Shown one piece after another: positions 23,823 to 40,590 of a DNA stretch of 64,000 nt; position 1 is the first letter of the stretch; every line of letters starts with the position of its first letter. The notes under the pieces are model-generated. The model was not told the origin of the DNA. It was given only the letters and a program-made list of their open reading frames with translations, and searched no databases. A program made the position numbers and the translations under genes. Origin of the DNA: Ensifer oleiphilus. Its GTDB lineage: Bacteria > Pseudomonadota > Alphaproteobacteria > Rhizobiales > Rhizobiaceae. The stretch covers positions 847,666-911,665 of the forward strand of contig NZ_JABWDU010000002.1 of NCBI RefSeq assembly GCF_013371465.1, given 5' to 3'.

Positions 23823-23982
23823 ATTCTCGGCTCATTTGGACCCGCTGGCACAGTATCGATCGGCTGTCACCCATGTCGATATCACCTTTTATTGAAGATC
23901 GGCCAAGCCCAGACAGTCGCCGACAGCCAATCCTGTGCTACATTTCGTCAGATAACGCGGCTCGCAATGACGGGTTGAAGCT

Positions 23983-24777: not shown

Positions 24778-24869
24778 CCGGCGCCGATCCACCACCATGC
24801 CAGATTGTCGTTTCCCTTCACCGCGCGCGACGATAAGATGCCGCACTCATTCGCGGATCGATCTCCTTC

Positions 24870-25580
24870 ATGCCCCTGCCCCCCCATCCGGCACCTGCCG
24901 ATGCAACCACCGACACCAGCACCCGGCAAATCCATGACAAGCTGCGCGATGCGATCGTCGAACGTCGGCTCGCGCCGGGAACCAAGCTGTCGGAAAGCGA
25001 TGTCGGCGATCTCTTCAATGTCAGCCGCACGCTGGTGCGCGCCGCCCTGCAGGCGCTTGCCTATGAAGGGCTGGTCACCGTCGAGAAGAACCGCGGCGCC
25101 TTCGTGGCCCATCCCTCGCCCGATGAAGCCCGCCAGATTTTTGCGACCCGCCGGCTGATCGAGCCAGGCCTCCTGCGCGCGGCTGCGGCCCGGATCGGCC
25201 AAGCCGAGATCAATGAGCTGCGCCGCCTGCTTGCCACCGAACAGCACCTGACCGCCCAGCGCGGCCGTACGGCCCGCCGCGCCGAGATCAAGGCGTCCGG
25301 GGACTTCCACCTGGCGCTCGCCGACCTCACCGGTAATGCCATCCTCAGGCGCTTCATGGACGAACTGGTCGCCCGCTCCTCGCTCGTCATCGCGCTCTAT
25401 GGACAATCGACCGTTTCGAGCTGCGGCCACAACGAACACGACGACATCCTGACCGCGATCGAAACCGGCGACATCGAGACGGCCTCAACGCTGATGATCC
25501 GCCATATCGATCACATCGAGGCCGATCTCGACCTCAGGGAGCGCAAGCCGACCGACCTCAGGGCCGCGCTCGACCTCTGA
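24870..25580 (+). CDS. GntR-family regulator, FadR/FCD type
   Basis: 236 residues. The GntR winged helix (LSESDVGDLFNVSRTLVRAA, about residues 46-65) is followed by the all-helical FCD ligand domain, with the usual metal-ligand His residues in DFHLAL and in the final SFMIRHIDHIE-like helix. Effectors of FCD proteins are commonly small organic acids. It lies 92 bp downstream of the DUF1194 gene. No operon partner shows its target. Confidence 0.87.
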   Translation: MPLPPHPAPADATTDTSTRQIHDKLRDAIVERRLAPGTKLSESDVGDLFNVSRTLVRAALQALAYEGLVTVEKNRGAFVAHPSPDEARQIFATRRLIEPGLLRAAAARIGQAEINELRRLLATEQHLTAQRGRTARRAEIKASGDFHLALADLTGNAILRRFMDELVARSSLVIALYGQSTVSSCGHNEHDDILTAIETGDIETASTLMIRHIDHIEADLDLRERKPTDLRAALDL

Positions 25581-25670
25581 AAGAGCGCCGGTCGAACCCC
25601 GCCGTGCGCCACAGCGAAGATTTTCGGCGAAAAATGTCGGCGTGGAAATTCCGTTCCCGGGGCTTCGAAA

Positions 25671-25687
25671 GGCCCGCGATTGCGGGC
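25671..25687 (+). other. GC-rich hairpin in the GntR-DUF982 gap
   Basis: GCCCGC-GATT-GCGGGC lies about 90 bp after the GntR stop. It has no U-run and is followed by more GC-rich sequence, so termination is only a possibility. The rest of this 240-bp gap shows nothing clear. Confidence 0.35.
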
Positions 25688-25822
25688 ATTGCGCCTGCCC
25701 GCCTATTCCCAACCATGTCTGCCCGCCACCATCATGGTTAAAAAAGCGCATCCTCCGAGGGAACCATCGGCAATCCCCGGCGTTGCCCTCCCGCTCAAAA
25801 GACTATGAATGAGGAATGCAAG

Positions 25823-26062
25823 ATGAGCGAAAAGACCTTCGCAACGCCGATCCACCTGAAACTGTCGTCCAAGCGGCAGACCGTCATCAGGACGGTCTGG
25901 GAGGCGCTTGAGCTGCTGCGGCAATGGCCGGGCAGACGTGGACGGGAATATCGTGCCGCCCTTCAGCGCTGCCTGGATGCGCTCGACGGGCTGACCAGCG
26001 TCAGCAGGGCAAGCCGCTGCTTTGCCGCCGCCGCCCGCGAATCGGGCCTCCTGCTCGCCTGA
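25823..26062 (+). CDS. DUF982 protein
   Basis: 79 residues of the small DUF982 family, which is abundant in Rhizobiales: FATPIHLKLSSKRQTVIRTV at the start, LLRQWPGRRGREYRAALQRC in the middle, then a helical end. Function is unknown. The start at 25823 (MSEK) is preferred over ATG 25805 because GAGGA lies at the right distance before it. The gene stands alone. Confidence 0.82.
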   Translation: MSEKTFATPIHLKLSSKRQTVIRTVWEALELLRQWPGRRGREYRAALQRCLDALDGLTSVSRASRCFAAAARESGLLLA

Positions 26063-26112
26063 GAAAACTCCAGCTTTCCGAAGTTCACGCACCGGCCGAC
26101 CGGCCGGTGCCG

Positions 26113-27123
26113 CTATTGCGTCGGCCGGCCGACATTTTTGCCGCCATCGGAAACAAGTGCGGCAAGCGACGCCTTGTCCAGCCGCCAGTCCGGCGAGCCG
26201 TAGCCAAGCGGCCACTTGTAGGGTTCCTTGTCGTTGAAGAACACCACGGCCGTCAGAAGCGGGAAACGATCGCGATAGGTGTTGCGATCGAAGATCTCCG
26301 CATACCAGGCGCGCTTGTAGTCGGCCGAGCCGGAAACGCCGAGTTCTGCAACCATCACAGGCTTCCCGAAACCTTCGACCCGCCGGTACTTTTCGCCAAG
26401 CGTTTCGCCAAAACTGCGCTCGCGGCCCCAATAGTCCACATCCATCTTCTGCAGACCCCAGACGGGAATGCCGATGGCATCGACCACGTCGTCACCGGGA
26501 TAGTAACCGGTCAGGTTGCGATGGCCCTTGGGCGACCAGACGAAGCGCACGTCGGGCGCAAGCTCCCGGCAGCTTTCGACAAAATACCGAAACGCCTTCC
26601 TGTATCCATCCGTGTCGCGCCGCGCCCAGGGATAGCGTCCATCGGGATCTTCCATCTCGTGGCCCCAGCGCATGTAGACCGGGGCGGCCACCGCGCCGGC
26701 GCGCTTGCAGATATCGCGGATCTCGCGATCGAAGCGGCCGCGGCCGATATCGGCAAACAGCCGCTCGCCGCCCGCCCGCCAGTCGCTCGCATGGGTATAG
26801 GGCTCGACGGAGATCATCAGCGCCCGGCCTTGCTCCTCGGCAATGGCGATCTTGCGCTTCAGCATCGCCTTGTCGAGCGCCTGCCAATAGACGAACACAT
26901 GCTCGATCGTCAGCGCATCGCTGTTCGTCACCGCGTCATGCGGGTCGTAGACGCCGATCGCAACCGCGCCGCCGGATTTGCCCGCGGCCTTGCCGGCCGT
27001 ACCGATCGAGGCCGTCGTCAGCACCCGGTCGACCGTGTCGCCGAGATCGGCAGCCACGGCGCGCGCGCCATCCATCGCCGGCGAAAGCGCCACAAGGCCG
27101 GCCAGGAACACCGATCTGAACAT
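26113..27123 (-). CDS. Secreted glycoside hydrolase, GH26-like
   Basis: 336 residues. A signal peptide covers about residues 1-25. The two catalytic glutamates expected of clan GH-A enzymes are visible: acid/base Glu156 in RWGHEME and nucleophile Glu260 in MVAELG. The spacing and the GHEM signature resemble GH26 mannanases and related exopolysaccharide hydrolases. The true substrate could be mannan, mixed glucan or the cell's own polysaccharide. The start is chosen as the first ATG before the signal peptide; no ideal ribosome site precedes it. Confidence 0.75.
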   Translation of the reverse strand: MFRSVFLAGLVALSPAMDGARAVAADLGDTVDRVLTTASIGTAGKAAGKSGGAVAIGVYDPHDAVTNSDALTIEHVFVYWQALDKAMLKRKIAIAEEQGRALMISVEPYTHASDWRAGGERLFADIGRGRFDREIRDICKRAGAVAAPVYMRWGHEMEDPDGRYPWARRDTDGYRKAFRYFVESCRELAPDVRFVWSPKGHRNLTGYYPGDDVVDAIGIPVWGLQKMDVDYWGRERSFGETLGEKYRRVEGFGKPVMVAELGVSGSADYKRAWYAEIFDRNTYRDRFPLLTAVVFFNDKEPYKWPLGYGSPDWRLDKASLAALVSDGGKNVGRPTQ

Positions 27124-27317
27124 CGCAATCGACAAGAGCTGTCTCCGACGGAGGATGAGACTTTTCCCGGAATAGAACGACGAGCGCTTCCCCCGAAAAA
27201 ATGCAGGACGACAAGAAACTCGAGTATCCCCGTAGCTCAAACCCTCAAGCGGAAACACTTTGACGAAACTGTATGAAGGCGAAGCATTTCAGGCGCATCA
27301 CCCAAATGGGAATGGCT

Positions 27318-27665
27318 TTACAGCGAACTTCTGAGGAAGCACCGCGACGTATGGCCGAAGCCGCTCGGCGAGCAGATATAGGGCGCGCGGCCGAGATAGG
27401 CGGTGGTCCGCTTCCTTGCCGGCAGCGGCTCGACGATATCGTCCTCCTGCGCAACCCTGATGAGCTTGCCCGCTTTCGGGGCAACGTTCGGCGTGCCCGT
27501 CACGGCCTTCGAGCCGGCAGACGCAAACAGCGGATTTTCCGCCATGCCCGCCGACGAACAGCCGGAAGAGACAAGCAGAAGACCGAGAAACGATGCAGGT
27601 ACGAGAGACTTGAAACCCGAAACGGTCATGCGGCGGAGGCCGCCCAAGGCGGTTAGGCTTCGCAT
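27318..27665 (-). CDS. Small lipoprotein with C-terminal CSPSGFG motif
   Basis: 115 residues. A lipoprotein signal with lipobox LVSSGC follows a basic n-region. The mature part ends in YICSPSGFGHTSRC, a two-cysteine motif I recall from many small rhizobial secreted proteins of unknown function. The start at 27665 has AGG six bases upstream; 27629 is an alternative. It lies 194 bp upstream of the glycoside hydrolase gene on the same strand. Confidence 0.68.
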   Translation of the reverse strand: MRSLTALGGLRRMTVSGFKSLVPASFLGLLLVSSGCSSAGMAENPLFASAGSKAVTGTPNVAPKAGKLIRVAQEDDIVEPLPARKRTTAYLGRAPYICSPSGFGHTSRCFLRSSL

Positions 27666-27740
27666 AAGCATCCTTTCGAACGAGCGGCCAGCGCCGCTTC
27701 GCAATCCCCTAGCGGGAATCGACCGTGAAGTTCAACCCCC

Positions 27741-28391
27741 ACTTCTTATTATTGACAGCTAAAATTAAGAGTTTCTTTCTGAGCGCATTCTTTTCGAATG
27801 CAGGAACGCTGCCAGGCCGCCGCCGCCCGCGCCGACCCCTGCCCCGCCAACCGCACGCCCGCGGGGTCGAGATCCGCAACCACAACGAAGAAACACCATG
27901 AGATCATGAGGTTGGGCAGCCAGACCGCGCCTGCCGAATTCAAACGAGCACCGGTTGAGGCCTCACCTCCCCCGTTTCACAGCATAGACGGACACAGCCG
28001 CCATCGAAGCCGTGCACGCCGCCACCCTGTCAAGCCGGAACAAACGTTCTCCCGCGGGACGCTCGCCGCTTCAGCGGGAGGCCGACGCGCGCCGCTTCGA
28101 CCAAAGTCCCCCTCATTTCTGGCCGCCGGCTGTTTACACAGTGTTGACCTCTCTGACGCACCTTGGCTTCCAGGCGCAACATGTTTGAGCGTATGCGCCC
28201 ACTCCAAAACTGCCCGCTTCTGGCGGGCATTTTTTTGGGAATCAATTTAGGCGGAAATTCTCTGTGAGCGTAGACCTACACGTGCCATGAGCGGAAAAGT
28301 GCGACGTCCCGGAAAATCGGTTGAAGGCTGAAAACGTGAAGACGGCGTTGCGGACGCCCCGAGGGGCGTCCGCTGCGACGCTCGTTTAAGG
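27741..28391. other. 650-bp gap with a terminator but no convincing gene
   Basis: The only long frame here (27798-28250, plus) is rich in Arg, Ala and Pro without domain character and is probably not a gene. TTGACA at 27752-27757 and TTGACC at 28144-28149 could be -35 elements. A clear terminator follows at 28211-28237. A short non-coding RNA is possible. Confidence 0.4.
28211..28237 (+). terminator. Intrinsic terminator
   Basis: TGCCCGC (28211-28217) pairs with GCGGGCA (28223-28229) around a 5-base loop, followed by eight T residues. It points along the plus strand, where no coding gene ends nearby. Confidence 0.8.
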
Positions 28392-30098
28392 TCAGTCGCG
28401 CCCTGTCTTCATCTCCCGGACCTGCTGCATGACCTGTTCAAGATTGTAACTTGCAGGATTTTGCATCGGCGGAAACTTGACGTAGCTCTCAAGATGCCTC
28501 AGCCACAGCTGCTGCCCGATCGGCAACATGTTCCAGTCATAGACATAGGCCGTTGATGGAGAGGCGATCGCGCCCCCCATGCCGAACAGTGTCTTGATCT
28601 GCTGACCGACCGACGTTTCGAACGGGTCACGCTTGATGTTGACAACCTGCGTCCACGAATAGGGCTGCACGCCGGAAATGAAGCCCGCAGGGTCATCAGA
28701 CACCATCGCGAAATACATCTTCCAGTTCTTGTAGCGGACCGCCGACGGCTCTTTGCCGGAATAGTAAAGGAACGTGTCGCGCGCCGACTTGTCCGATTTT
28801 CCTTCAAGGTAGGCGCGTTGATTGACGCCGTCGAGCGTGGTCTTTGCTATGCCGGGATACTCACCCCGCTCGATTGTGGCCTTAAGTTCATTGCCCTTGG
28901 GCCCGCCGGCGATTTCGACCAAGGTGGGCAGCCAGTCCAGCGCGGCAAACATATCGTTTTTCACCGTTCCCGGTTCGATGTGGCCGGGCCAGCGTACGAC
29001 CAGCGGTGCCCGCATGCCGCCTTCCCAGGTGCTCAGCTTGCCGCCCTTGAACGGGGTGGTGCCGCCGTCCGGAAATGTAATCGTCTCGGCACCGTTGTCC
29101 GTGGTGAAGACGACGATGGTGTTGTCAAGCTCTCCCATTTCCTCGAGCTTCTTCAGCACGTAGCCGATATTGTCGTCCATCTGCTTCATGCCGGCTTCAT
29201 TAACGCCCCAGTCCTTGCCGCCCGGTTCCCCCACCATGTTGAGGTATTTGTCGGGCAAGACGGTCGTGATGTGCATGCGGGCGGGGTTGTACCAGACGAA
29301 AAAGGGCTTCTTGGTTTTCTCGGGGTCATTCCGGTCCAGGAAGTCGATGACCTTCCCTGAAATCTCTTCATCAATCGTCTTTGAGCGCTCGAGCGTTAGC
29401 GGCCCTTCGTCCTTGCAGGTCTGATTGGCCGCAGTCCCGTCGGAGGACGTGCACGCGAGCATCGGACGCGGCGGTGTAAGACACGTAGTGGTCGCCGGGT
29501 CGACTGCCGCTGGATCTTCGTTAAGCCCCGGTATCGGTGTATTCTTGCAAGGCGGCGCGAGGGTCTGCTCGGTCGCTGTCTTGTTGATGTCTGGGAAACT
29601 TACACCCTGCATGGCATCGAGGTGATAGAGATAACCCCAGAACTCCTGAAAACCATGTGCGGTTGGCAGAGACTCCGTGTGATCGCCAAGGTGATTCTTG
29701 CCGAACTCGCCAGTATTGTAGCCGAGATCGCGCAGGAAGCGGGCAAGAGTGGGTGTGCCGGTCCGAAGGTAGGATGGGCTTCCGGGAATTTCGGGTAGGA
29801 CCATGCCAACACGCACCGGCTGCATGCCGGTGAGGAAGGCAGTACGACCAGCCGTGCAGCTTTGCTCGGCGTAGTAGGTCATGAATTTCGCACCCTCTTT
29901 GCCGATGCGATCGATGTTGGGCGTCTCGCCCACCATTAGGCCCTGGTGATAGATGCTGGGTTGCATCCAGCCGATATCATCGCCCATGATGAACAGAATG
30001 TTGGGCTTGGGCTCCTGTGCTCGGACACTCGGCGTGCCGGCCAGAATACTTGTCGCGGCTAACGCTGCTGCAATACACGTCGCTCTTGTATGAGACAT
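28392..30098 (-). CDS. Arylsulfatase-type sulfatase
   Basis: 568 residues. A signal peptide (residues 1-28, ending VRA-QEP) sends it to the periplasm. Metal ligands Asp40-Asp41 (IMGDDIGW) and the formylglycine motif CTAGR (Cys81-Arg85) mark a type I sulfatase; the Cys must be converted to formylglycine. It hydrolyses sulfate esters, giving sulfate for growth. GAGGGAGGGA precedes ATG 30098. No sulfatase-modifying enzyme or sulfate transporter is next to it. Its base composition looks a little more AT-rich than the flanking core genes. Confidence 0.88.
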   Translation of the reverse strand: MSHTRATCIAAALAATSILAGTPSVRAQEPKPNILFIMGDDIGWMQPSIYHQGLMVGETPNIDRIGKEGAKFMTYYAEQSCTAGRTAFLTGMQPVRVGMVLPEIPGSPSYLRTGTPTLARFLRDLGYNTGEFGKNHLGDHTESLPTAHGFQEFWGYLYHLDAMQGVSFPDINKTATEQTLAPPCKNTPIPGLNEDPAAVDPATTTCLTPPRPMLACTSSDGTAANQTCKDEGPLTLERSKTIDEEISGKVIDFLDRNDPEKTKKPFFVWYNPARMHITTVLPDKYLNMVGEPGGKDWGVNEAGMKQMDDNIGYVLKKLEEMGELDNTIVVFTTDNGAETITFPDGGTTPFKGGKLSTWEGGMRAPLVVRWPGHIEPGTVKNDMFAALDWLPTLVEIAGGPKGNELKATIERGEYPGIAKTTLDGVNQRAYLEGKSDKSARDTFLYYSGKEPSAVRYKNWKMYFAMVSDDPAGFISGVQPYSWTQVVNIKRDPFETSVGQQIKTLFGMGGAIASPSTAYVYDWNMLPIGQQLWLRHLESYVKFPPMQNPASYNLEQVMQQVREMKTGRD

Positions 30099-31558
30099 TT
30101 CATGTCCCTCCCTCAGAGATAAACTTGGGGGGCGAAAATGCCCCTCACCAGATTTGATGTGTATGAAGAGTTGAATGCGACGCGGTACCGTCATCACGAC
30201 GCGGCGGTTCCTGCGCCACTACGCAGTTGTCTGTCCGCGTTTCAGCGCGAAATCAGATGGCCAGGTCATTAGCAAGTGCGCAGATCAGCCCGAGCAGCCT
30301 ATGCCGAAAATTGGAAGCGTGTCTGCGCAAACAAAAAAGGTATGCCCAATGAATGCGTGGAGAGGCCACTCGCGCTCGAGCTTGATTATGGTGCAGAGGT
30401 GAGGCATTTCAAGACTAGAATTCTCAATAAAATACACGCCGCAGTCGACAAACTGCCTACAAGATCAAAAGTAATTCTAACGAGTTATTCGACCAACTGA
30501 CAGGTCTGTGAAATGCATTTACGATTGTATCCGACGTCGGCTCTGTGAGACTTTTCTGGGGACCGCCAATGGCGCGCAAAAGCTGACATGGTCCTACCGG
30601 TTGTTGTTTGTCACCTCTATCCGGAATTATCCGGGGAGATCGGGGGAGACCATGGAACAAGCGGAGAGTGCTTGAAAACCAACGGGTTGGTGGTGGGGAT
30701 GGCCGATCCGTCGCGGGGAGGTTTTGACACCGACGTTTGTCAAAATCGCCTTCAACCCACTTTGATGACTAGGCGGCTGGCCGGTACGGCAAGGAAGCTG
30801 CTGAAACCCCTTAAAGACCCTTCAAGGCATCTTCAACTGATTGATATTTAACGAGCAAGCCGACTTCAGGAATTTCGGCTCAGGAGGCGAAATTCCTCCG
30901 ATTTGATGCCGTTTCTCCAATTTAGATAAGTCCACTCTGGTCTTTTTCGCCGAGGAACGCGATTTCCGCAATAAAATCAGCGGGCTAACGATTAACCACG
31001 GCCGAAAAGAAAAGTTCAGCCCGATCCGTTGCCGTGGATATGTGGTTTGCGCATTTACGCCGCGTGACTATAACCGTGATGGGCTTGAACACCCTGACTT
31101 CACATAGGCACGCCGCCATAGCGGTGGCCGAACACATGCGCAGCTTGGCGGCTGGCGCATTCGCCGTGGCCATTTCGGCCGGGGGCGATGTGCCATGTCC
31201 AAGCTCCGGCTAAAAGCGCATCGGCGTGTCTGTGAAGCGCGTGTTCAACCCCCGGCTCCGGCGCCGTTTGCCGGCACATAGAGGCGGGCATCGCATGCAA
31301 ATTATCACTTGAGAATATTCGCGTTTACCTTGCGGAGCGAGCATAGCTTGCCTTTAGGTGGTGGTGCGCCTTAGCCTTAACCAAGGGTTAATGGGCATTC
31401 GAGGGCATACCTGAGTTGATCGCATAAAGCAGCACACGCCAGTCATTCTGAAGCGAATGCTTCTCTCACCATATCGTCGATGCATCTCACCTGGTTGACC
31501 TGACCGGGACCGCTCGGCCCTGCCCCATTTTCACGGATTGCCAAGCATGGTTTCACAA
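30099..31558. other. 1.46-kb region without a convincing gene
   Basis: Only short, low-quality frames occur. A perfect 10-bp inverted repeat (AGGAATTTCG-N10-CGAAATTCCT) lies at 30868-30897. A 44-codon frame at 31080-31214 (MGLNTLTSHRHAAIAVAEHM start) is doubtful. GAAGC-N4-GCTTC occurs near 31450. The right part should hold the left end of the Mu-like element next to its repressor gene, but I could not define the end. Confidence 0.45.
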
Positions 31559-32080
31559 TCATGAGGCCTCGCGTTTCCCGCTACCAGGCTCGGCGCTAGC
31601 GATCCGTTCCTTGAAGCGATCCCGCAAGACCGGGATCAGTGCAGCCACCACCGCTTTGTCCCTGATATCGGCGACCATCCCCAGCAACTGATTGTAGAGT
31701 TCACCGGCCTCGGCGGTTACTGCTCGAGGCGGCGGCGTCTGCTTGCACTCGACGAAGACGGCCTGGACTGTGTCGTGCAGTTGCTGAAGCAGGACGACAT
31801 CAACGCCCGCGCTCGGCGCCGGTCCTTTCGAAGTATCCTCGAACATGTCCCCTTGGCCGGTGATGAGCCAAGTCAGACTTACGCCGTGTTCCGTGCGATA
31901 CGCGGACAGTGCCAAGGCGTCGGGAGTTCGGTCTCCCCGCTCATAATAGCCAAGCATCGGCTCCGTCAGACCAACGGTTTCAGCGAACGCCGCTCGCTGC
32001 TGAGAAAACCCTAGCTTTTCCCGAGTTTGTACCAGCCGCTCGCCCAGCGGCGTCTTCGACGGTTTTGGTTTCTTCCCCAA
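31559..32080 (-). CDS. Phage repressor, XRE/CI-like
   Basis: 173 residues. The N-terminal helix-turn-helix (FSQQRAAFAETVGLTEPMLG, about residues 25-44) resembles phage CI-type repressors, and the C-terminal part is helical and uncharacterised, without a visible LexA-type protease site. It is divergent from a Ner-like gene across a 35-bp operator palindrome. This is the standard lysogeny switch of Mu-like phages. Confidence 0.82.
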   Translation of the reverse strand: MGKKPKPSKTPLGERLVQTREKLGFSQQRAAFAETVGLTEPMLGYYERGDRTPDALALSAYRTEHGVSLTWLITGQGDMFEDTSKGPAPSAGVDVVLLQQLHDTVQAVFVECKQTPPPRAVTAEAGELYNQLLGMVADIRDKAVVAALIPVLRDRFKERIASAEPGSGKREAS

Positions 32081-32092
32081 TGATCAATGATC

Positions 32093-32127
32093 TCACAAAT
32101 TGGTATTTACTATATACCAAATTGTGA
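32093..32127. promoter_or_regulatory. Operator of the Mu-like lysogeny switch
   Basis: TCACAAATTGGTAT (32093-32106) and ATACCAAATTGTGA (32114-32127) form an inverted repeat with two mismatched positions around a 7-bp spacer. It lies between the divergent repressor and ner genes, in AT-rich sequence fit for two promoters. Both proteins could bind it. Confidence 0.65.
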
Positions 32128-32209
32128 TATCCCTTTCTGTGTTCGCAGACTTCATCACCCCAAAAAAGGAGGCCGGCCAGGGCCTCCCATCTGGATCAAG
32201 GATTTACTT

Positions 32210-32533
32210 ATGCATCGTGCCTCCACGAGCGACAAGGCCAGCCGCGCCGAACGCCGCCGCCTTGAAGAGGTGGCCCGCATTCGCGGACGCCTTACCCTCG
32301 CCAAGCTCACCCTCACCGGGATCGACAAGGCCTACAATTTGCCCGCCGGCACGGCCGGGAATGCGGTGCACGAACCGCACCTTGCAGGCGAGCGCGCTAT
32401 CGCCGCTGCGCTGAAGACGCGTCCCGAATATCTGTGGCGCACCCGCTACCACGCGGATGGCCAGCGCATGACGCCCCAGCCAGCGGAGAACTATCGTCAT
32501 GCGCGCCGCCAGCTCGCGCCGGAGGCTGCATGA
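32210..32533 (+). CDS. ner: Ner-like DNA-binding protein
   Basis: 107 residues. The part LTLAKLTLTGIDKAYNLPAG to RPEYLWRTRYHADGQRM (about residues 23-84) matches the Ner/Nlp family, including the closing W-x-x-R-Y element. In Mu, Ner turns down the early and repressor promoters at the start of lytic growth. It is the first plus-strand gene after the operator, preceded by AAGGA, and its stop overlaps the next start codon. Confidence 0.82.
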   Translation: MHRASTSDKASRAERRRLEEVARIRGRLTLAKLTLTGIDKAYNLPAGTAGNAVHEPHLAGERAIAAALKTRPEYLWRTRYHADGQRMTPQPAENYRHARRQLAPEAA

Positions 32534-33120
32534 TGGGGCCGATCAGCTTTGAAAACCGGGAAGCAGCAGCGCGCCACGCACGTGCACGGCGCGATTTCAG
32601 ACGTCATCTGAAGGCGATGACTGCTCTTGGCCGGGACCACCTGACGTCGGACGACGTTGCCGAGATTTGGGCTTCGTCGGTTGCCGAGTACGCGCAGGAG
32701 ACGTCCGAGCAGATTGCTTCACGCCTCGGCCCTCGGCCTGCTCTTCCTCGAGGCCGAACCATTCTAAGCTCATCCCGAAGGGAAGATCCTCGGCAAACGG
32801 ATACAATTGCGGGCGCCCTGCAGCGACCGCGTGAAGAGCGGCCGCGGATTGCCCAATCATCATGCTCTTCGACGGGTTCGCACCCGCTGATACGCCGTAT
32901 TTACACAGCGCTTCGAGCATCATTAGCGAGCTTCGCGCTTGATGCAGCAGCACGACTAGAACCGCGTGCAGGTCTTCCGTGTCGCCGATGCTGCCAAGCA
33001 ACTTTGCCCGTTGACGCCGAGGCGTGTGGAAGAACTGCTCGACCACGTCCGGATAGTACCCGGCCTTCTCCCGAATTTCCTCCTCACCGTACCGAAGGCA
33101 ATTCGCGAGAATTGCCATAA
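32530..33120 (+). pseudogene. Early-operon ORF, probably real only in its first ~65 codons
   Basis: The frame starts at ATG 32530, overlapping the ner stop (ATGA), with GGAGG just upstream, so translation here is likely. Residues 1-66 (MMGPISFENREAAARHARAR onward, to ETSEQIASRLG) look like a helical protein. After that the sequence turns into Arg/Pro/Ser-rich text that mirrors a well-formed gene on the other strand (32597-33301). I read it as the truncated start of an early phage gene, or as a short gene whose end I cannot place. Confidence 0.45.
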
Positions 33121-33301
33121 CGCCCTCTTTTTCCATGAGCGAACCGATGAACAGGCATTCTTCGCGTGCCCAGTCTTCGTACGTGTCCAGATCCATGCAG
33201 ATACCCTTCCTTGCTGGATTTCGTGGCGCATCGAAGCCGAAATCTGACGAGTCGCCAATGGCGAAACGTCGCTCCGAAATAGACAGCCGAAACCCCTTCA
33301 T
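32597..33301 (-). CDS. Unknown protein inserted backwards in the phage early operon
   Basis: 234 residues. AGGAGG stands 5 bases before ATG 33301; a second possible start, also with a good ribosome site, is the ATG of MDLDTYEDWAREE at 33196. The core is acidic and helical with a hydrophobic pattern typical of a folded protein (LHAVLVVLLHQARSSLMMLE). The last 37 residues are Arg/Pro/Ser-rich and disordered and may be an artefact of joining. I do not recognise the family. It opposes the direction of all neighbouring early genes. Confidence 0.65.
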   Translation of the reverse strand: MKGFRLSISERRFAIGDSSDFGFDAPRNPARKGICMDLDTYEDWAREECLFIGSLMEKEGVMAILANCLRYGEEEIREKAGYYPDVVEQFFHTPRRQRAKLLGSIGDTEDLHAVLVVLLHQARSSLMMLEALCKYGVSAGANPSKSMMIGQSAAALHAVAAGRPQLYPFAEDLPFGMSLEWFGLEEEQAEGRGVKQSARTSPARTRQPTKPKSRQRRPTSGGPGQEQSSPSDDV

Positions 33302-33410
33302 CCCGTCCTCCTCTCCCGTGTGCCGTGTGGCCGACCAGGTGCTTGTGTTTAGCGTAGCCCTGGCCGGTCTCGTGGCGGGAGCTGCGGCCATTCTCCGACA
33401 GGTGCTGTGA
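33258..33410 (+). CDS. Small membrane protein, doubtful
   Basis: 50 residues with one hydrophobic helix (VADQVLVFSVALAGLVAGAA, about 25-44). The stop overlaps the next gene's start (TGATG), which favours a real, coupled gene. Against it, the ribosome site is poor and the first 44 bases overlap the start of the reverse-strand gene. It may be the remainder of a longer early gene. Confidence 0.4.
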   Translation: MAKRRSEIDSRNPFIPSSSPVCRVADQVLVFSVALAGLVAGAAAILRQVL

Positions 33411-33766
33411 TGCTGAACCGCTTCGACCAGAAGGCGCTCTATGAAGCCTGCATGCATGTCTGCACGATCGCCGTGCGGGATGGGTTCCCGCACCTTTCGG
33501 CCGCCGACATTCTCGATCCGCCGCATCAGTGGTTCGATGCGGCCCTCGCCCGCCAGATCGTCATGCATCTGATGATCCGCGAATGCGGCTGGCCGAAGCG
33601 ACGTGTCGTCGAGGTCGAGGAGCGGTCCCGCGAGGCCATCAACCGGGCGCTGCGCACTGTCGATGCTCGCATGAAGCATCCCCGATTTGCCAACCACTAC
33701 CAGACGATCAAGACGCAGGCGCGCTCGCTCCTGACCATGATTGCCTCCGAAGAGGAAGCGGCCTGA
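33410..33766 (+). CDS. DnaA domain IV-like phage protein
   Basis: 118 residues. The C-terminal half (ARQIVMHLMIRECGWPKRRV, then EERSREAINRALRTVDARMK) resembles the helix-turn-helix domain IV by which DnaA binds its boxes, but the signature region is degenerate and no ATPase domain is present. A replication- or host-control role in a Mu-like phage is an inference. A GTG at 33407 is an alternative start. It lies 3 bp before the ParB-like gene. Confidence 0.6.
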   Translation: MLNRFDQKALYEACMHVCTIAVRDGFPHLSAADILDPPHQWFDAALARQIVMHLMIRECGWPKRRVVEVEERSREAINRALRTVDARMKHPRFANHYQTIKTQARSLLTMIASEEEAA

Positions 33767-33769
33767 CCC

Positions 33770-34606
33770 ATGCTCAAGACCCTACCCATTTCCTCGATCC
33801 TGGTCGCCGACCGCGCCCGTCCGGTCGATCTGGACCATGCGGCGGCAATCGCCGGCTCCATGGTCGATCGCGGCCTGATCAACCCCGTCACCGTGCGCGC
33901 CACGCCTGCCGCCCAGGGCGGCAAGACGCCCTACACGCTTGTTGCAGGCGGCCACCGCCTAGAAGCGGCCCGCATGAACGGCTGGGAGGAGATCGAGGCG
34001 GTCGTAGTCACGGCCGACGCTGCCGAGGCGCAGCTGATCGAGATCTCCGAGAACCTGTTTCGCAACGATCTGTCCGCCCTCGATCGCGCCATCTTCGTGA
34101 TGAAGTTCCGCGAAATCTATGAGGACAAGCACGGCAAGATTGAGCGCGGTGGCGACCAAAAATCAAACTGCAACGATTGCAGTTTGATTTTCGCTCCAGG
34201 GAAGGAGCTTTCACAGCGGGTTCAAGAGCGCCTCGGGTTCGGTGAACGCACATATTTTAATGTGACGAAGATCGGGCAGAAGCTCCACCCGATGCTGCGC
34301 AGCTCACTGCGCGGCACGCCCTACGAAAACGACCAAAAACAGCTGCTGAAGCTCGCCGGCTTGCCCGAGGCCGAGCAGACCGGCATCGCCGCCGCCCTCA
34401 AATTCGAGCCCGACCTGAAGAAGGTCATGGCAATGGACAAGCCGGCGAAAGCGACTGCTGACGAGAGCCAAGCCACCATCCTCAAGAAGCTGATCGCAGC
34501 CTGGGAGAAGGCGAGCGACGAAACCCGCAACGAATTCCTTGAGCACATGGGCCTCTCCGATCGCGGAGATCCGTTGATGCGTGAGATTATGGAGGACGCG
34601 GCATGA
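33770..34606 (+). CDS. ParB-like nuclease/partition-domain protein
   Basis: 278 residues. The N-terminal ParB/Srx fold is clear: GLINPVTVR, VAGGHRLEAARMNGW (near residue 65) and the helix-linker motif ISENLFRNDLSALDRA (near 92). The rest is a helical DNA-binding region. Such genes are common in the early operons of Mu-like phages of alphaproteobacteria; their role there is not settled. The coding sequence contains a perfect 15-bp hairpin at 34159-34191. The stop overlaps the next start (ATGA). Confidence 0.82.
   Translation: MLKTLPISSILVADRARPVDLDHAAAIAGSMVDRGLINPVTVRATPAAQGGKTPYTLVAGGHRLEAARMNGWEEIEAVVVTADAAEAQLIEISENLFRNDLSALDRAIFVMKFREIYEDKHGKIERGGDQKSNCNDCSLIFAPGKELSQRVQERLGFGERTYFNVTKIGQKLHPMLRSSLRGTPYENDQKQLLKLAGLPEAEQTGIAAALKFEPDLKKVMAMDKPAKATADESQATILKKLIAAWEKASDETRNEFLEHMGLSDRGDPLMREIMEDAA
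34159..34191. repeat. Perfect 15-bp hairpin inside the ParB-like gene
   Basis: AAAATCAAACTGCAA (34159-34173) and its exact complement TTGCAGTTTGATTTT (34177-34191) surround CGA. The insert keeps the reading frame and encodes KSNCNDCSLIF, after the common GGDQKS. The right arm ends in TTTT, so it could pause or end early transcription. Confidence 0.85.
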
Positions 34607-35061
34607 AGCCCAACCATACCCAACTCGACTTTTTCCTTGAGCCCGTTTTCCCTGTCCGCGACCCGGCGCAGAAACTCGACCTCGACCGCTACCGCACCAA
34701 ACTGAAGCGGGCCATGGCGCGGGCGATCCGCGAATGCCCCTATGACCGGCCGACCATCGCAGCGCGCATGGCGCAGTATCTCGGCCTGCCGTCAATCAAC
34801 AAGGCCACGCTCGACGCCTATACGGCGGAAAGCAAAGCGCACGACATCACTATGCCGCGCTTCGCTGCCCTGGCGCACGCCACCGACGCCTTGTGGCTTT
34901 GGGACGAGGCCGCGTCCCTGCAGGGCGTGACGATGCTGATCGGCGAAGAGGCGGTGCTGGCGGAAATCGCCTACTGCCGCCAGGAGCAGAAGCGGATCTC
35001 GGCCGAGCTGAAGCGCCTGACCGCCCGCCCCATCCGCATCCAGTCGCGGGGGAAAGTGTAA
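34603..35061 (+). CDS. Mu-like phage early protein of unknown function
   Basis: 152 residues without a recognised domain. It is helical and basic in the middle (RTKLKRAMARAIRECPYDRP, about 31-50) and ends with a coiled-coil-like segment (EEAVLAEIAYCRQEQKRISA). Start and stop both overlap the neighbouring genes (ATGA with the ParB-like gene, TAATG with the transposase), which shows it belongs to the same early operon. By position it lies just before transposase A, where comparable phages carry a small DNA-binding accessory gene. Confidence 0.7.
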   Translation: MKPNHTQLDFFLEPVFPVRDPAQKLDLDRYRTKLKRAMARAIRECPYDRPTIAARMAQYLGLPSINKATLDAYTAESKAHDITMPRFAALAHATDALWLWDEAASLQGVTMLIGEEAVLAEIAYCRQEQKRISAELKRLTARPIRIQSRGKV

Positions 35062-35490
35062 TGGACGGCTGGTTCACGCTCGATGCCCTGTTCGATCTGC
35101 GCCTGCCCGGCATGCCGACCAGCCTGTCGAGCCTGAAGCGGCTGGCAAACGATGGCAATTGGCGCCTGCGCGAGGGCCAAGCCCGTCAGGTTCCGACGAG
35201 CACGAAACCCGCCTGGCAGTATCACGTCTCGCTGCTACCGGGCCTTGCCCAGGCGAAGCTTGCACAGATCGCGCAGCGGGACGCCACCCTGGCGGAAACG
35301 CGCGAGAGGCGCCGGGCTCTCTACTGGAAGACATTCGAGGCGATGACCGAGGAACACCGGCAGGTGGCGCACCAGCGGCACGCGTTGATCATCACGGCCG
35401 AGGATGCCTTGGCGAAGCGGGAGCTTGCCGGTTCGGTGTTGTCGATCGAGGAGACGCTTGCTCCTGTGCTTCGCAAGTGCGCGCGACGAC
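35061..35490 (+). pseudogene. Transposase A (MuA-like), N-terminal fragment
   Basis: The first ~140 residues match the start of MuA: a DNA-binding winged domain (WFTLDALFDLRLPGMPTSLS onward) and the RRRALYWKTFEAMTEEHRQV helix. The open frame runs on to 35837, but after about 35480 it reads the antisense of the mupB gene, so the real homology ends there. The remainder of the gene is found on the opposite strand at 36592-37581, and residues equivalent to about MuA 145-350 are missing. The product cannot catalyse transposition. Confidence 0.82.
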
Positions 35491-35491
35491 A

Positions 35492-36514
35492 TCACACCTC
35501 CTCCACTTCGCGGTTGTTCCAGGCGGCTTCGATGTGCTTGCGCTCCAGCTCGGAGGCAGGTTTCTGTGTGGCCAGGCAAGCCATCTTGACCGTGCGGTCA
35601 ATCTGCCGGAGCGCGCCACCCTTCAGCCCGATGCCGAGCAAAAGCTTGACGCAGGAGGCGTCGTGGATATCCCAGGCGTCGATGAATGTACGCACATCGG
35701 CCTCCCGGCCGGGGTCGCGCTTCAGGTTCTTATCGATCCGGCTCAGGATCTGGTCGCGACTGGACGTCTGCTGCGCGGCTTGCGTCATCCGCTTGCGCAC
35801 CTCCTCGTTCCCGACCAGCGCCAGGCCGACGCGGTAATTGTCGGAGAAATAGCGCAGCTGGTTAACGCTCTCCGGGTCGGCGTGCTGCGCCTCGTCGATG
35901 ATCAGGAGGGCGCGGTCACCCGATGAAGACAGCCGCTCGCCGACCATGTCGACCAGGTCGGCCGGGTTGAAAACCCGGACACCAAGCTTGCGTGAAAGCA
36001 GGCTCATGACGCCGTGAACCGTCTTCACTTTGGGATTGAGGGTGACCATGTGCACATGCGGCTTAACCCGCTGGTACTCTCTGCATGCGGTGGTCTTGCC
36101 GCGTCCGGCCGCAAGCGTGATGGTGACAAAACCGGTCATGGTCTGTGCCAGGAGCAAGGTGGAGTGGATTTCGCGCGCCGCCAATGTCCGCAGGAAATGC
36201 GGACCTTCCGGCATGGCGGCTTCTACCGCCGCGCTTTCCTCGATAGCGTCCAGCCAGCGGCGCGCCTGCGCGTTCTGGTTATCGAGGACGCCAAGAAGTG
36301 TGCCGGAAAGCCACTGTGAAAACGAACTTTCCGCCATGCCGATGCGTCGGCCGGTTTCGGCCTTTGTCCAACCGTTCTTGGCGGCTTGGTTGGCCACGCC
36401 CTCGCGAAGGCGTTCCCACGTCGAGATTTCATCCGCGGAGTGCTTCGCGACGAATTTTGCTGCCGGTTCGGGCAGGTCCCAGGTGGCGGGTATTGCATTC
36501 AGGATATCAAGCAT
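35492..36514 (-). CDS. Transposition ATPase B (MuB-like)
   Basis: 340 residues, intact. An N-terminal helix-turn-helix (KAETGRRIGMAESSFSQWLS, about 51-70) precedes an AAA+ domain: Walker A AAGRGKTT (135-142) and Walker B LLIIDE (203-208), followed by the C-terminal DNA-binding region. MuB activates transposase A and picks target DNA. The first Gly of the P-loop is replaced by Leu (position 134), which may weaken nucleotide binding. It follows the A fragment by 77 bp on the minus strand, the normal A-B order, but the pair is reversed relative to the rest of the operon. Confidence 0.87.
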   Translation of the reverse strand: MLDILNAIPATWDLPEPAAKFVAKHSADEISTWERLREGVANQAAKNGWTKAETGRRIGMAESSFSQWLSGTLLGVLDNQNAQARRWLDAIEESAAVEAAMPEGPHFLRTLAAREIHSTLLLAQTMTGFVTITLAAGRGKTTACREYQRVKPHVHMVTLNPKVKTVHGVMSLLSRKLGVRVFNPADLVDMVGERLSSSGDRALLIIDEAQHADPESVNQLRYFSDNYRVGLALVGNEEVRKRMTQAAQQTSSRDQILSRIDKNLKRDPGREADVRTFIDAWDIHDASCVKLLLGIGLKGGALRQIDRTVKMACLATQKPASELERKHIEAAWNNREVEEV

Positions 36515-36591
36515 TCAAAAGGGTTCCTATTCAGCGCTATGGACGGGCGGGTTTCGTGGACCCGCCCTGTTTTTTGTCGGAACCGTACTCA

Positions 36592-37581
36592 CTACGTTTC
36601 GGCTCTGCTTTTACGGCCGGACGCACTACCTGCCGGCCGATCCCCTCTCGGGAATGGGATGATCGAGCTGTCGCCCGAAATCAGGGAAAGACCGCGCGCG
36701 ATGCCGGCCTCGTATTCGTCTTGCGACATCACGTCGGTTTCCTGCTCGATCGCGAGGTTGCCGGTGACGATGCGGGTGATGGTCGGACGGATGGGCTCCG
36801 GCTTCTCCGGCGGATCGGCGGCATAAAGCTCGCCGAGCTGGGCGGCCGACATCTGCTTGTGCAGCTTGGCCTTCGCCTTGTTGAGCTTGACCAGGGCGCG
36901 GCGGTTCCGCTCGTGACGGGCGGCCTTGGCCTGCTCGTTGTAACCGGCCTTCTCGGTGCAAGGCGCATCGCAAATGAAGCGGCCTTCAGGATCGTAGACC
37001 TTGACCGGCTGGTGCAACTTGTCGGGGTCAAAGCGAACGGTCAGGTGCTTGCCCATCCATTCGTTGAGTTCGGGAGCCCAATAGACATTCTTCTGGAAGT
37101 GGATCTCGCCATTGCGGGGACGTGTCTTCAGGACCTTAGCCGCGAGCATCCAGAGTGAGCGTTGCGCTTCCGTGGCCCGCCGAACGATGGTGGCGGGATG
37201 GCGCATGCTTTCCGCGAATGTTTCGTCGAAGCTTCGGCCCTTTGCCGTCTCGGATCTGCGTCCGGTGCGGGCGTTGTGCTCGGCGATGCGCTCGGCAACG
37301 TGCCGCTCCAGAACGTCGAGCGGGACGGCCCAGGTGCGGTAGTTCTCGGGCTTGTTTTCGGGCTTGTTGCCGGTGTAGGCGCCGGACATGGCCGGGTGCT
37401 TGGAAATCTCCTCGGCAAGGTCTTTCCAGGCGCGCTCGATCGGCTTCGACTGGCCGGAGTAGGGCTTGGTGAAATGCGGCTCGATATCGAGCGTCTTCAG
37501 AAGGCCGGCGACTTCGTTTTCGATCTTCTTGAACCGATTGCGGCTGAGCGCCTCGTCGAAGAGCATGGCATGCAGGCTCAT
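36592..37581 (-). pseudogene. Transposase A (MuA-like), C-terminal fragment
   Basis: 329 residues that align with MuA from just after its second catalytic Asp to the C-terminus: NRFKKIENEVAGLL, SKPIERAW with the third catalytic residue Glu49, HPAMSGAYTG, NARTGRR, VRFDPDKLHQPV and DPEGRFICDA. An in-frame TAG stands immediately before its first ATG, which marks the break. The N-terminal fragment lies on the plus strand 2 kb away. Asp residues 1 and 2 of the DDE triad are absent from the window. Confidence 0.85.
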
Positions 37582-38076
37582 CTAAGGCCGACCCCAATTA
37601 TCGCCACCGCACGGTTCCTCAAGGAGCACAACCTGCCACCGATTAATCGCTTCGACGCGGCTACACGCATGCAAGTATTGCGCGCTGCGTTGCAGCCTGG
37701 AAGCATGCTGCTTCGCACACCCGATGGAGATGTCCTTAACGGTCCAGCCCTTATGGTGATCGCCTTTGAATTGGTGCGGCTACCGATTGCAGATCGACAG
37801 AGCATTACGCGCATGATGATGATCGTCACGGCGGCAGCGCACGGGCACCGTGGCGATCCAGCAGTTGCCAGGAAGCTTGCAAGCCCAGAGGCAATGTCGA
37901 GGTTCAGGCGCTTGATCGAGCAGGCGTCGGGCTCGTCCGCCGGTGGTGTGGGCCTCTTCCTTGAAGAGAAGCAAACCGAAGACCCGACAGCCGCTTTAAT
38001 GCGGGCGATTGACACCGGCTCGTTGCCGTCGAAGAAGAATGGAGGCGGCTCGCCCGTACTTCTGGGAAGGCGATGA
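37582..38076 (+). pseudogene. Unknown gene truncated at the inversion junction
   Basis: The frame is open from the inversion boundary and codes for about 164 residues, beginning LRPTPIIATARFLKEHNLPP. No ribosome site is seen; an internal ATG at 37669 could give 135 residues. The 5' end is probably lost. The product is helical in the middle (ALMVIAFELVRLPIADRQSI) and ends in a Gly/Lys-rich tail. I recognise no family. The last codons overlap the next start (ATGA), so the two form a unit. Confidence 0.55.
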
Positions 38077-38420
38077 CCCAACAAGTCATTCTCGCAATTG
38101 CACAGGCCATCGGCGCCGGGAAAGCGCGTGCCATTCGGGAAAGAGCTTCGCCCCAAGAGGTCGACGAACTGGGCTTACTACCTAGCGACTGCCATTCGAA
38201 CGCGGAGAAGTTCGCTAGTGCGCGCGGCGGCAGGGTCGTTCGTGGATGGCTCGCAGGGCGCAATTTTTTCATCCCCCATTCAGTCGTCGATCTGCATGGC
38301 GTGCTCCACGAGGCCACGCCCGTAGATAATGCATTGTATGACGCTTGCGTATTCGTGGCGGAGAAAGACGTGCCGGCGGTGGACTGGAGCAAGGAGCCGC
38401 CTGTGCTCTTTTGCGAGTAG
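38073..38420 (+). CDS. Unknown protein with papain-like Cys/His pattern
   Basis: 115 residues. SDCHSNAEKFASARGGRVVR and FFIPHSVVDLHGVLHEATPV recall a family in which a Cys in a CHxNA motif, a His in HSVV and a polar residue in TP lie in order, suggestive of a papain-like fold. This is inference from pattern only. The ATG overlaps the stop of the truncated upstream gene. It is the last gene before the tRNA and may be cargo of the phage-like region. Confidence 0.6.
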   Translation: MTQQVILAIAQAIGAGKARAIRERASPQEVDELGLLPSDCHSNAEKFASARGGRVVRGWLAGRNFFIPHSVVDLHGVLHEATPVDNALYDACVFVAEKDVPAVDWSKEPPVLFCE

Positions 38421-38454
38421 CGTTCAAGGGGTCTTTGAAAGACACTCAAATCGC

Positions 38455-38541
38455 AATTTTTGACACCAGAGCCGGAATTGCCGTTTTTCCGGTTTTCGCT
38501 GTCAAAATTCCGGAAAATCGCGGCGAGCTACACCGGTGTAG
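38455..38541. repeat. Cluster of inverted repeats beside the tRNA gene
   Basis: AATTTTTGACA (38455-38465) pairs with TGTCAAAATT (38500-38509), and within it CCGGAAT (38472-38478) pairs with ATTCCGG (38508-38514). A perfect palindrome CTACACCGGTGTAG follows at 38528-38541. They lie between the last unknown gene and tRNA-Ile, and may be an element end, a recombination site or a terminator region. Confidence 0.55.
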
Positions 38542-38612
38542 TCGCATTATTATCGGGGAATGAAATTGCTACGCTTCGAGGGGAGAATTACCTCAAGCGC
38601 GCGATCGAAAAC

Positions 38613-38688
38613 TGGTGGGCCCGGAGGGACTCGAACCCCCAACCAAGCGGTTATGAGCCGCCGGCTCTAACCATTGAGCTACAGGCCC
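38613..38688 (-). tRNA. tRNA-Ile (CAU, lysidine type)
   Basis: A 76-nt cloverleaf with encoded CCA. The acceptor stem is GGGCCTG paired with CGGGCCC, the D-arm is AGCTCAATGGTTAGAGC, the anticodon loop is CTCATAA, and the T-loop contains GGTTCGAGTCC. The CAT anticodon could mean Met, but the body matches the ileX-type isoleucine tRNA whose C34 becomes lysidine to read AUA. The gene marks the right edge of the phage-like segment. Confidence 0.92.
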
Positions 38689-38847
38689 ACGCCGGATCAG
38701 GTCCGGGACTCAGCGAACCAATGGCAGTTCGTGAACGGCAATGGCTCTAGCCGAAAACCTTTTTGACGACAAGTCATTGCCGCAATGCCCACACAATCGA
38801 TAAGCATGAAGTGAGCAGGGACAGAAACAACCGGAGAGACACGACCC

Positions 38848-39597
38848 ATGACTTCCACACGCACTGCCCGCACGCTTTCCATCGCTGCCTTGGCCGCCGC
38901 CTTTGCGGGTATTGCCGCTGCCGGCGCACACGCGCAGGATGCCGCCAGGGACCGCGAAGCGATCATCACGGTTGCCGGCGAAGGCCGCTCGTCGATTGCG
39001 CCCGATATGGCGATCCTGCAGCTGAGCGTCGTCAAGGATGCCAAGACGGCGCGTGAGGCGCTCGACGCCAACAACAAGACGATGGCCGAGGTTCTGACCG
39101 CCCTCAAGGCAAGCGGCATTGCCGACCGCGACCTGCAGACGAGCGGCTTCTCGATCAACCCGCAGTTCAACTTCCCGACCAACAATGACGGCGGCAACCG
39201 CCCGCCGGAGCTGATCGGCTACCAGGTGGCCAACGGCGTGAGCGTACGCGTGCGCGACCTTACCAAGCTCGGCGAGATCATCGACAAGTCGGTCACGCTT
39301 GGCGTCAACCAGGGCGGCGGCATCCAGTTCACCAATGACAAGCCGGAAGGCGTGATCACCGAAGCCCGCAAGGCCGCAGTCGCCGATGCCATCGAGAAGG
39401 CCAAGGTTCTGGCGGAAGCTGCCGGCGTTTCGCTCGGCAACGTCGTCAACATCACCGAGCAGGGTTTCCGCCCGGAGCCGGTGCCGATGATGCGCGCCGG
39501 CATGGCCAAGGAATTTGCGGCCGATTCCGTGCCGATGGCAACGGGCGAAAACAGCTACAACGTCACGGTCAACGTCACCTTCGCGATCAAGCAGTAA
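38848..39597 (+). CDS. SIMPL-domain (DUF541) secreted protein
   Basis: 249 residues. A signal peptide (cleavage after AHA, about residue 31) precedes a SIMPL domain: ITVAGEGRSSIAPDMAILQL at the start of the mature part, DLQTSGFSINPQF in the middle, and the closing NVTVNVTFAIKQ strand. Bacterial members (YggE, BP26) sit in the periplasm and form ring-like channels or help with oxidative stress; the exact role is unclear. It ends in a good terminator. Confidence 0.87.
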   Translation: MTSTRTARTLSIAALAAAFAGIAAAGAHAQDAARDREAIITVAGEGRSSIAPDMAILQLSVVKDAKTAREALDANNKTMAEVLTALKASGIADRDLQTSGFSINPQFNFPTNNDGGNRPPELIGYQVANGVSVRVRDLTKLGEIIDKSVTLGVNQGGGIQFTNDKPEGVITEARKAAVADAIEKAKVLAEAAGVSLGNVVNITEQGFRPEPVPMMRAGMAKEFAADSVPMATGENSYNVTVNVTFAIKQ

Positions 39598-39699
39598 CGC
39601 CCGCCGCCTGAGCCCGCGCGCCAACAGCGCTGGCGGGTTTTTGCGGTTTGCGGCTCGCCGCCGACCAAGGGTCGGGAGGCCAGCACCGGAAAAGACAAG

Positions 39700-39733
39700 G
39701 CCCCGCGCAGTGGCAACCGCGCGGGGCTTTTTC
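39700..39733 (+). terminator. Terminator after the SIMPL gene
   Basis: GCCCCGCGC (39700-39708) pairs with GCGCGGGGC (39719-39727), followed by TTTTT. It lies about 100 bp after the SIMPL stop codon on the plus strand. Confidence 0.85.
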
Positions 39734-39782
39734 GTGTCGTGCTCAAGCGCGATGCATGCCCGTCTGTGGCTTGCAGACAAAG

Positions 39783-39812
39783 AAAAACCCCTCACGCCTG
39801 GGGCGTGAGGGG
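39783..39812 (-). terminator. Terminator for the secreted protein gene
   Basis: Read on the minus strand, CCCCTCACGCC (39788-39798 complement) and its partner at 39802-39812 form an 11-bp stem with a 3-base loop followed by TTTTT. It is 45 bp beyond the stop of the small secreted protein gene. Confidence 0.85.
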
Positions 39813-39856
39813 TGCATTTCCGCCGGCCGGGGGAGACAGGACGGAAAAGGCTTGGA

Positions 39857-40255
39857 TTACCAGCGGCCGATAACCGGGCAACCGCGCTGATTGGCGAAAG
39901 CGATTGTCTGGCGGTAGCCGCGGCGGCTGCCTTCGACGACGATGCGGCGGTGCGAGACATCGGCGACATAGGCACGGCGCAGGCCATGGTCACGGGCCTT
40001 GTCGACAGCCATCCAGGGGGCGCAGCGGCTGCGGCGGCCACCGCCATCCCAGCCACGGTCCGGACCGCGGCGATCACGACCCCAGTCGCGCTCGTCGCCG
40101 TAACCACGGTCGAAATCGCGATACTGAACCTGAACGCCATCGCCCGAGCCGAAACCGAATTCGACGGTGTCTGCGGAAGCGGTGGAAGCGGCACCGAAAA
40201 GGCCGGTCAAACCGATGACGGCGGCGGCGGCGGCGTTGATGAGGATGTTCTTCAT
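39857..40255 (-). CDS. Small secreted protein of unknown function
   Basis: 132 residues. A signal peptide (AAAAAVIGLTGLFGAASTAS then ADT, about residues 8-28) is followed by an Arg/Asp/Gly-rich low-complexity stretch (DRGYGDERDWGRDRRGPDRG) and a compact C-terminal domain of about 50 residues with two Cys (SRCAPWM and RGCPVIG). I know the C-terminal pattern only as a conserved rhizobial hypothetical. The start at 40255 is set by the signal peptide; the longer frame upstream is not coding-like. Confidence 0.7.
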   Translation of the reverse strand: MKNILINAAAAAVIGLTGLFGAASTASADTVEFGFGSGDGVQVQYRDFDRGYGDERDWGRDRRGPDRGWDGGGRRSRCAPWMAVDKARDHGLRRAYVADVSHRRIVVEGSRRGYRQTIAFANQRGCPVIGRW

Positions 40256-40590
40256 GGTCTTTCTCCGAGGGCTTGAAGGGTTCAATCTGCAATCACCGTC
40301 CCAAGCGATTGATCGGACAATAGCGCCGCCAAACTGAACGCTAGCGGAACTGCACATTCATGCGGGGTTCAGATTGCGGGCACATGCCGCAAACGGGCGG
40401 GAAACAGAGATTCGTTCGACTTCCAGGCGAGGTGCCTCGATGGATGATCGGCAAACCTTACGCACATTTTTTCTAGCGATATCAAATTGATAGAGGGTTG
40501 ATCGACAGATGGCCTTGCCATCCCACGCGCGACAGGCGGCGTGAAAATCAGCGCGATTTTCCTGAGGAGGTTGCGATGCGAAGACGCGGC
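40256..40590. other. 335-bp gap, no gene seen
   Basis: The left part should hold the promoter of the secreted protein. TATCAA-A-TTGATA, a 13-bp palindrome, lies at 40480-40492. I see no open frame or RNA gene worth naming. Confidence 0.4.

Follow-up and report, generated by a model that had tools for sequence, protein, structure and literature searches.

An internally deleted Mu-like prophage remnant in Ensifer oleiphilus with both ends retained and an inverted transposase A–B block

Results

Limits and location of the element

The 64,000-nucleotide stretch of Ensifer oleiphilus contig NZ_JABWDU010000002.1 analysed here (the window, to which all positions refer unless another record is named) contains a decayed, mini-Mu-like prophage remnant at 30602–38532 (7,931 bp), internally deleted but with both Mu-like ends present, in which the C-terminal part of transposase A and the whole of B lie inverted behind an N-terminal fragment of A. 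The repressor, Ner and B frames are intact and the element is no new system; it is a real instance of an ordinary kind of prophage decay, in which the rearrangement is unusual and well resolved.

The termini were placed by comparison with Sinorhizobium phage Aussie (OR786373). The left end (TGTTGT..., 30602–30740, plus strand) aligned with Aussie 17–115 over 101 bp (78% identity), with Aussie base 1 mapping to 30602, and the right end (...CGAGCTACA, 38440–38532, plus strand) has a near-identical terminus in Aussie and in other elements. These TG...CA termini, at 30602 and 38532, are bounded by perfect copies of CCGGT (30597–30601 on the left and 38533–38537 on the right), a 5-bp duplication that would match by chance about once in 1000, the ends being fixed by Aussie. 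The target duplication of Mu is likewise 5 bp.

The element lies in a variable island (28239–38612) flanked by a tRNA-Met gene (CAT; 38613–38688, minus strand), which looks like an integration hotspot. The island was delimited against seven of the 15 same-genus genomes found: shared sequence ends near 28238 and resumes near 38613 in six of the seven, and the seventh (L042) matched on the right side only. No empty site was found in these seven relatives, whose islands at the tRNA-Met differ, and a search of 394 genomes with the left flank returned the own genome, one partial match (72%) in G393 and no empty site. Immediately left of the prophage, close to the 28238 limit of shared sequence, the island carries a sulfatase gene (PF00884, 28392–30197). 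In the same-genus record L043, 49 bp of tRNA-Met are duplicated 15.4 kb apart (1874–1922 and from 17269 onward) and bound an island; the corresponding tRNA-Met gap in L046 measures only about 0.4 kb.

Gene content and comparison with known phages

The closest intact counterpart was a Mu-like prophage from IMG/VR (UViG_2751185817_000003, hereafter L008), whose c, ner, phrog_9734, ParB-like, phrog_2345, A (both pieces) and B products showed 92–100% protein identity to those of the element. The c-type repressor (31559–32080, minus strand; HTH_3, phrog_4/phrog_8) was 92% identical to that of L008 and 40% to the Aussie c repressor, and the Ner-like early regulator (32087–32533, plus strand; HTH_35) 97% identical to that of L008 and 52% to Aussie Ner. 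They are followed on the plus strand by the early gene phrog_9734 (33407–33766; assigned by PHROGs and 100% identical to L008), a ParB-like early gene (33770–34606; ParB_N in Pfam, phrog_3264) and the early regulator phrog_2345 (34603–35061; PHROGs). All five frames are open, as are those of B and, over its matched length, the C-terminal part of A. The early gene order is common to L008 up to A codon ~140, except for a 657-bp segment (32595–33251) that separates ner from the following early gene and is without an L008 match, whose scanned ORFs had no PHROG match; 32662–33305 is 79% identical to L005/L011, which marks the segment as mosaic. L008 differs in having a 677-aa A that is open throughout and A and B on one strand, within a record of 40,369 bp.

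Aussie has in common with the element the early gene order, both termini and a relative of the right-end gene, and Sinorhizobium phage StopSmel (OR786374) matched the C-terminal part of A at 53%. Both differ from the element in being complete phages, with C-terminal A parts 53–55% identical to that of the element and, in Aussie, collinear A and B. Escherichia phage Mu is related through the domains of A and B and the 5-bp target duplication; it is, however, intact, and its A is about 37% identical to the C-terminal part in the element.

The inverted block is followed on its right by a right-end gene reduced to its C-terminal half (37547–38076, plus strand), identified by tblastn and annotation as a relative of AUSSIE_53, the last gene of Aussie, and lacking its N-terminus. 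The tblastn match to AUSSIE_53 (38% identity, E=7e-21) starts at the first residue of the query, where the query had been cut; with the whole element as subject, AUSSIE_53 matched from its residue 115 and from 37510 (E=2e-25). Relatives of this gene were found neither in plasmids nor in viral contigs, and among phages in Aussie alone; 151 relatives yielded the own genome and one weak match (G064, 30%, E=2.5e-4), and the 14 records behind the compared loci three weak matches (best E 0.13). The rightmost ORF (38073–38420, plus strand) had no match in Pfam, PHROGs, PADLOC or plasmids. A reading of 37547–38420 as host DNA was overturned by the AUSSIE_53 match and the Mu-like right end.

Nine of the 53 Aussie proteins matched the element, namely AU5–AU12 (c repressor to B) and AU53, and none of the 40 encoded between B and the right-end gene (AU13–AU52) did so at E<=1e-3. 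A PHROGs scan of 15 of its ORFs gave no structural-gene match either, and no head, tail or lysis genes were detected in these comparisons. The lost DNA would amount to about 29 kb in Aussie coordinates and up to about 34 kb by the 40,369-bp L008 record, plus about 0.66 kb of A.

Transposase A and the target-capture ATPase B

A preliminary description of this DNA, made from the sequence alone, had proposed that A is split over two strands about 2 kb apart, with an intact B following the minus-strand part, and this was borne out by profile matches and by alignment with L008. The N-terminal part (35061–35477, plus strand) matched HTH_Tnp_Mu_1 in Pfam (E=1.1e-5) and the phrog_310 transposase in PHROGs (E=4e-15) and was 93.5% identical to residues 1–139 of the L008 protein, corresponding to MuA 1–137. 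Beyond A the plus-strand frame stays open into antisense B, giving 258 aa in all and ending at 35837. The ORF carrying the C-terminal part (36592–37581, minus strand) contains Mu-transpos_C and DDE_2, the latter from profile position 94 of 221 (Pfam), and matched L008 A at 98% identity from residue ~361 onward (MuA ~352), just past the second catalytic Asp, as had been described. Homology to A ends at about 37546–37548, and the ORF start beyond it is non-A sequence.

The catalytic roles of MuA D269, D336 and E392 are treated in passages of PMC3362531. Alignment with MuA from NC_000929 equates these residues with D273, D345 and E397 of L008, and the missing middle of A (L008 ~140–360) includes D273 and D345. 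The loss of both catalytic Asp residues was accordingly corroborated: the element lacks the equivalents of MuA D269 and D336 and retains that of E392 (L008 E397). A search of the own genome, rated 99.94% complete, with full L008 A returned the two pieces and one weak match (34%, residues 13–71, E=0.02), and the middle of A was not found elsewhere; the DDE_2 profile hit a single place in this genome, without a second A. Because the Asp, Asp and Glu of a DDE transposase are not all present, the element is a remnant and not a functional Mu-like prophage. Neither an active transposase nor virus particles can be made from it. That A might be naturally split, an idea taken from phrog_15639 and phrog_14727, was rejected on the single full-length A frame of vB_RhkS_P1 and vB_ThpS-P1.

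The target-capture ATPase B (35492–36514, minus strand; AAA_22 and Phage-MuB_C in Pfam) has an intact frame of 340 aa, the same length as L008 B and 95.9% identical to it. It adjoins the C-terminal part of A, and the two are inverted together.

Rearrangement junctions

Direct comparison with intact L008 supported the proposed inversion with deletion. Window 33252–35481 matched L008 1466–3695 on the same strand, and window 35471–37546 matched L008 6429–4354 on the opposite strand, both at 91% nucleotide identity. The left junction, at which A codon ~140 is joined to inverted DNA just past the B stop, therefore falls near 35478–35490 by the L008 alignment (it was first placed at about 35480). 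The right junction, where inverted A (~codon 361) is joined to the right-end gene, was moved from the 37582 first given to 37546–37547, the end of the A match. This boundary is blurred by about 36 bp (from 37510) in which the AUSSIE_53 match overlaps the A match of 91–98%, which we attribute to a weak alignment extended too far. That the sequence beyond this junction belongs to the right-end gene of the phage itself had escaped the preliminary description; the lesion has thus also cost the element what lay between B and the right-end gene.

A Mu end is present at neither junction, and the element retains its two ends and the 5-bp duplication intact. Failed transposition, to which the preliminary description had attributed the inversion, was on these grounds rejected as the cause. 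Its view that site-specific inversion is unsupported stood: no gix-like site with up to three mismatches was present, and of the 43 inverted pairs the 25 listed include no long repeat linking the two junctions. The parent sites of the left junction share AAGT in L008, GGAAGT in L004, AAG in L003 and AGT in L006, and since the shared bases differ between relatives this microhomology is suggestive only. A 14-nt perfect inverted repeat (32861–32874 and 37554–37567) comes within 8 bp of the right junction, and the left one is spanned by a direct repeat of 22 nt and 86% (35470–35491 and 38211–38232). As causes of the rearrangement both were judged to be chance among the 32 families of direct repeats and 43 pairs of inverted repeats returned, part of which were listed.

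Survey of relatives

Matches to the C-terminal part of A were present in 42 of 394 family genomes, the own genome included. At all 46 loci compared, every detected part of A and B lay on one strand in the normal order, so related phages with the broken order, which had been looked for, numbered 0 of 46. All four parts (A N-terminal, A middle, A C-terminal and B) were detected at 40 loci, the N-terminal part of A being undetected at three and B at three. These 46 include repeat sightings of one prophage, with identical figures (L003/L009, L005/L011 and L006/L010/L059), and the order check used the 29 places with loci out of 48 outside the own genome, L007 (29% identity) being left out. At least four of the remaining places fall in frames shorter than 330 aa, candidates for additional A fragments. 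Among 151 genomes, searched through the best few candidates of each, the junction DNA was matched in full by the own genome only, and two others gave 32–37-bp matches. The inversion is a one-off in the material examined.

The Mu-like right end was found in 34 of the 394 family genomes, the own genome included, at E<=0.01, the weakest of these matches probably being chance. Three same-genus genomes (G007, G009 and G010) have the right end and no match to the C-terminal part of A. Eleven stretches preceding such right ends were inspected and a left end was found in none of them, so a two-ended deleted element is documented for the window alone. In G010 (L119 17225–19694) a GemA-like frame directly precedes a Mu-like right end, within a few hundred bp, and this element is probably another internal deletion. 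In G296 (L120 7376–19650) c, ner and a right-end methyltransferase are present, with no detectable A or B between them. In G456 (L121 19538–19636) a Mu-like right end runs straight into the final 24 bp of another such end, an arrangement that insertion of one element into the terminus of another would produce.

Discussion

Origin of the rearrangement

The anatomy of the element is most probably the outcome of a normal transposition insertion, a later A–B inversion and then one deletion. A Mu-like prophage would have inserted by normal transposition into the variable island beside tRNA-Met, as its ends and target duplication indicate. Illegitimate joining, perhaps assisted by microhomology, would then have inverted the DNA between A codon ~140 and a point just beyond B, the left junction being its visible product. 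A single deletion, from the interior of the inverted A into the right-end gene, would have removed the middle of A, the far junction of the inversion and the genes that had followed B. The inversion is placed first because the lost middle of A and the genes beyond B then adjoin, and one deletion takes both; had the late genes been deleted first, the middle of A would have stayed. This order holds on the assumption of two simple events. The right-end gene (38% protein identity) and the right end are compared with Aussie, and neither was recovered from the searched part of the L008 record (22000–40369), for which reason a single L008-like ancestor of the lost DNA is presumed. A Ku homolog is present in the genome, so end joining would be possible.

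The same final anatomy would result from one catastrophic event of at least three breaks, in which two fragments were lost and the A–B fragment was rejoined backwards by end joining. The little or no homology at the junctions and the presence of Ku agree with such an event, which differs from insertion, inversion and deletion in history only; it needs simultaneous breaks, however, which nothing in the sequence demands, and we consider it possible but rather unlikely. That one or both junctions of an otherwise intact prophage were misassembled is very improbable. The order is known from the assembly alone, in a genome of 32 contigs, but A is single copy, its middle was not recovered from this nearly complete genome, the ends, duplication and flanks are coherent, and the contig extends well beyond the window. 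An inversion that switches A and B in a programmed or site-specific manner would explain a block that is cleanly flipped; with DNA missing on both sides, no gix-like site or inverted recombination sites at the two borders (among the pairs listed), and a single orientation at all 46 of the relatives' loci, its probability is negligible.

Domestication under selection, for example of the c repressor, B and the C-terminal part of A as an immunity or interference module, is doubtful. It is favoured by the frames of c, ner, the ParB-like gene, B and the C-terminal part of A, open over their matched length, and by assigned changes of 29 nonsynonymous to 64 synonymous on the window branch versus 29 to 105 on the L008 branch (p=0.12, not significant), a comparison that drops 221 unassignable changes and uses an outgroup, L059, that is seemingly the same prophage as L006. 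Open frames are, however, equally expected from a young lesion; the window branch is, if anything, the more nonsynonymous (7:22 versus 5:45 on the L008 branch for the C-terminal part of A plus B, p=0.11), and the junction DNA was found in full in none of 150 relatives, so long-term retention is not seen. The substitution pattern is compatible with a recent lesion as well as with weak residual constraint, and is proof of neither. Insertion followed by inversion and a single deletion remains our preferred account.

Significance

Decayed Mu-like prophages are known, and laboratory mini-Mu retains both Mu ends around a deleted interior. The element resembles mini-Mu in this arrangement, its termini being candidate transposase-bound ends by sequence, and differs in that it is natural, has its C-terminal A part and B inverted and has a non-functional A. 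No mini-Mu-type mobilisation into further copies was seen: the C-terminal part of A occurs once in the own genome, where one right-end match was found among the best 2 of 14 candidates, and the junction was not matched in full in 150 relatives. An inverted block of this kind was not reported in the titles and abstract openings of the literature searched. Passages of PMC6379469 give FluMu and Sp18 as prophages and also discuss a link between grounded prophages and immunity.

The repressor may still be expressed, giving immunity to related phages, and the remnant may serve as a passive substrate for the transposase of a related phage. Taken further, it could be a naturally arisen mini-Mu, immune and transposase-dead, moved in trans and packaged as a parasite of related Mu-like phages, and similar elements sharing one conserved right end may be scattered across Rhizobiaceae-type hosts; we give this extended idea little credence at present.

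The element is a clean case of a transposable prophage disarmed by loss of the active site of A and of the genes beyond B, with repressor and ends kept, and its anatomy lets the order of events be deduced. It also carries a warning for annotation: a C-terminal A ORF beside an intact B resembles a transposition module and cannot be active. Decayed Mu-like elements with retained right ends seem not to be rare in the family, which makes the present element less surprising, and the conserved right end of about 50–75 bp offers a handle for those decayed elements of the family that gene-based searches may miss.
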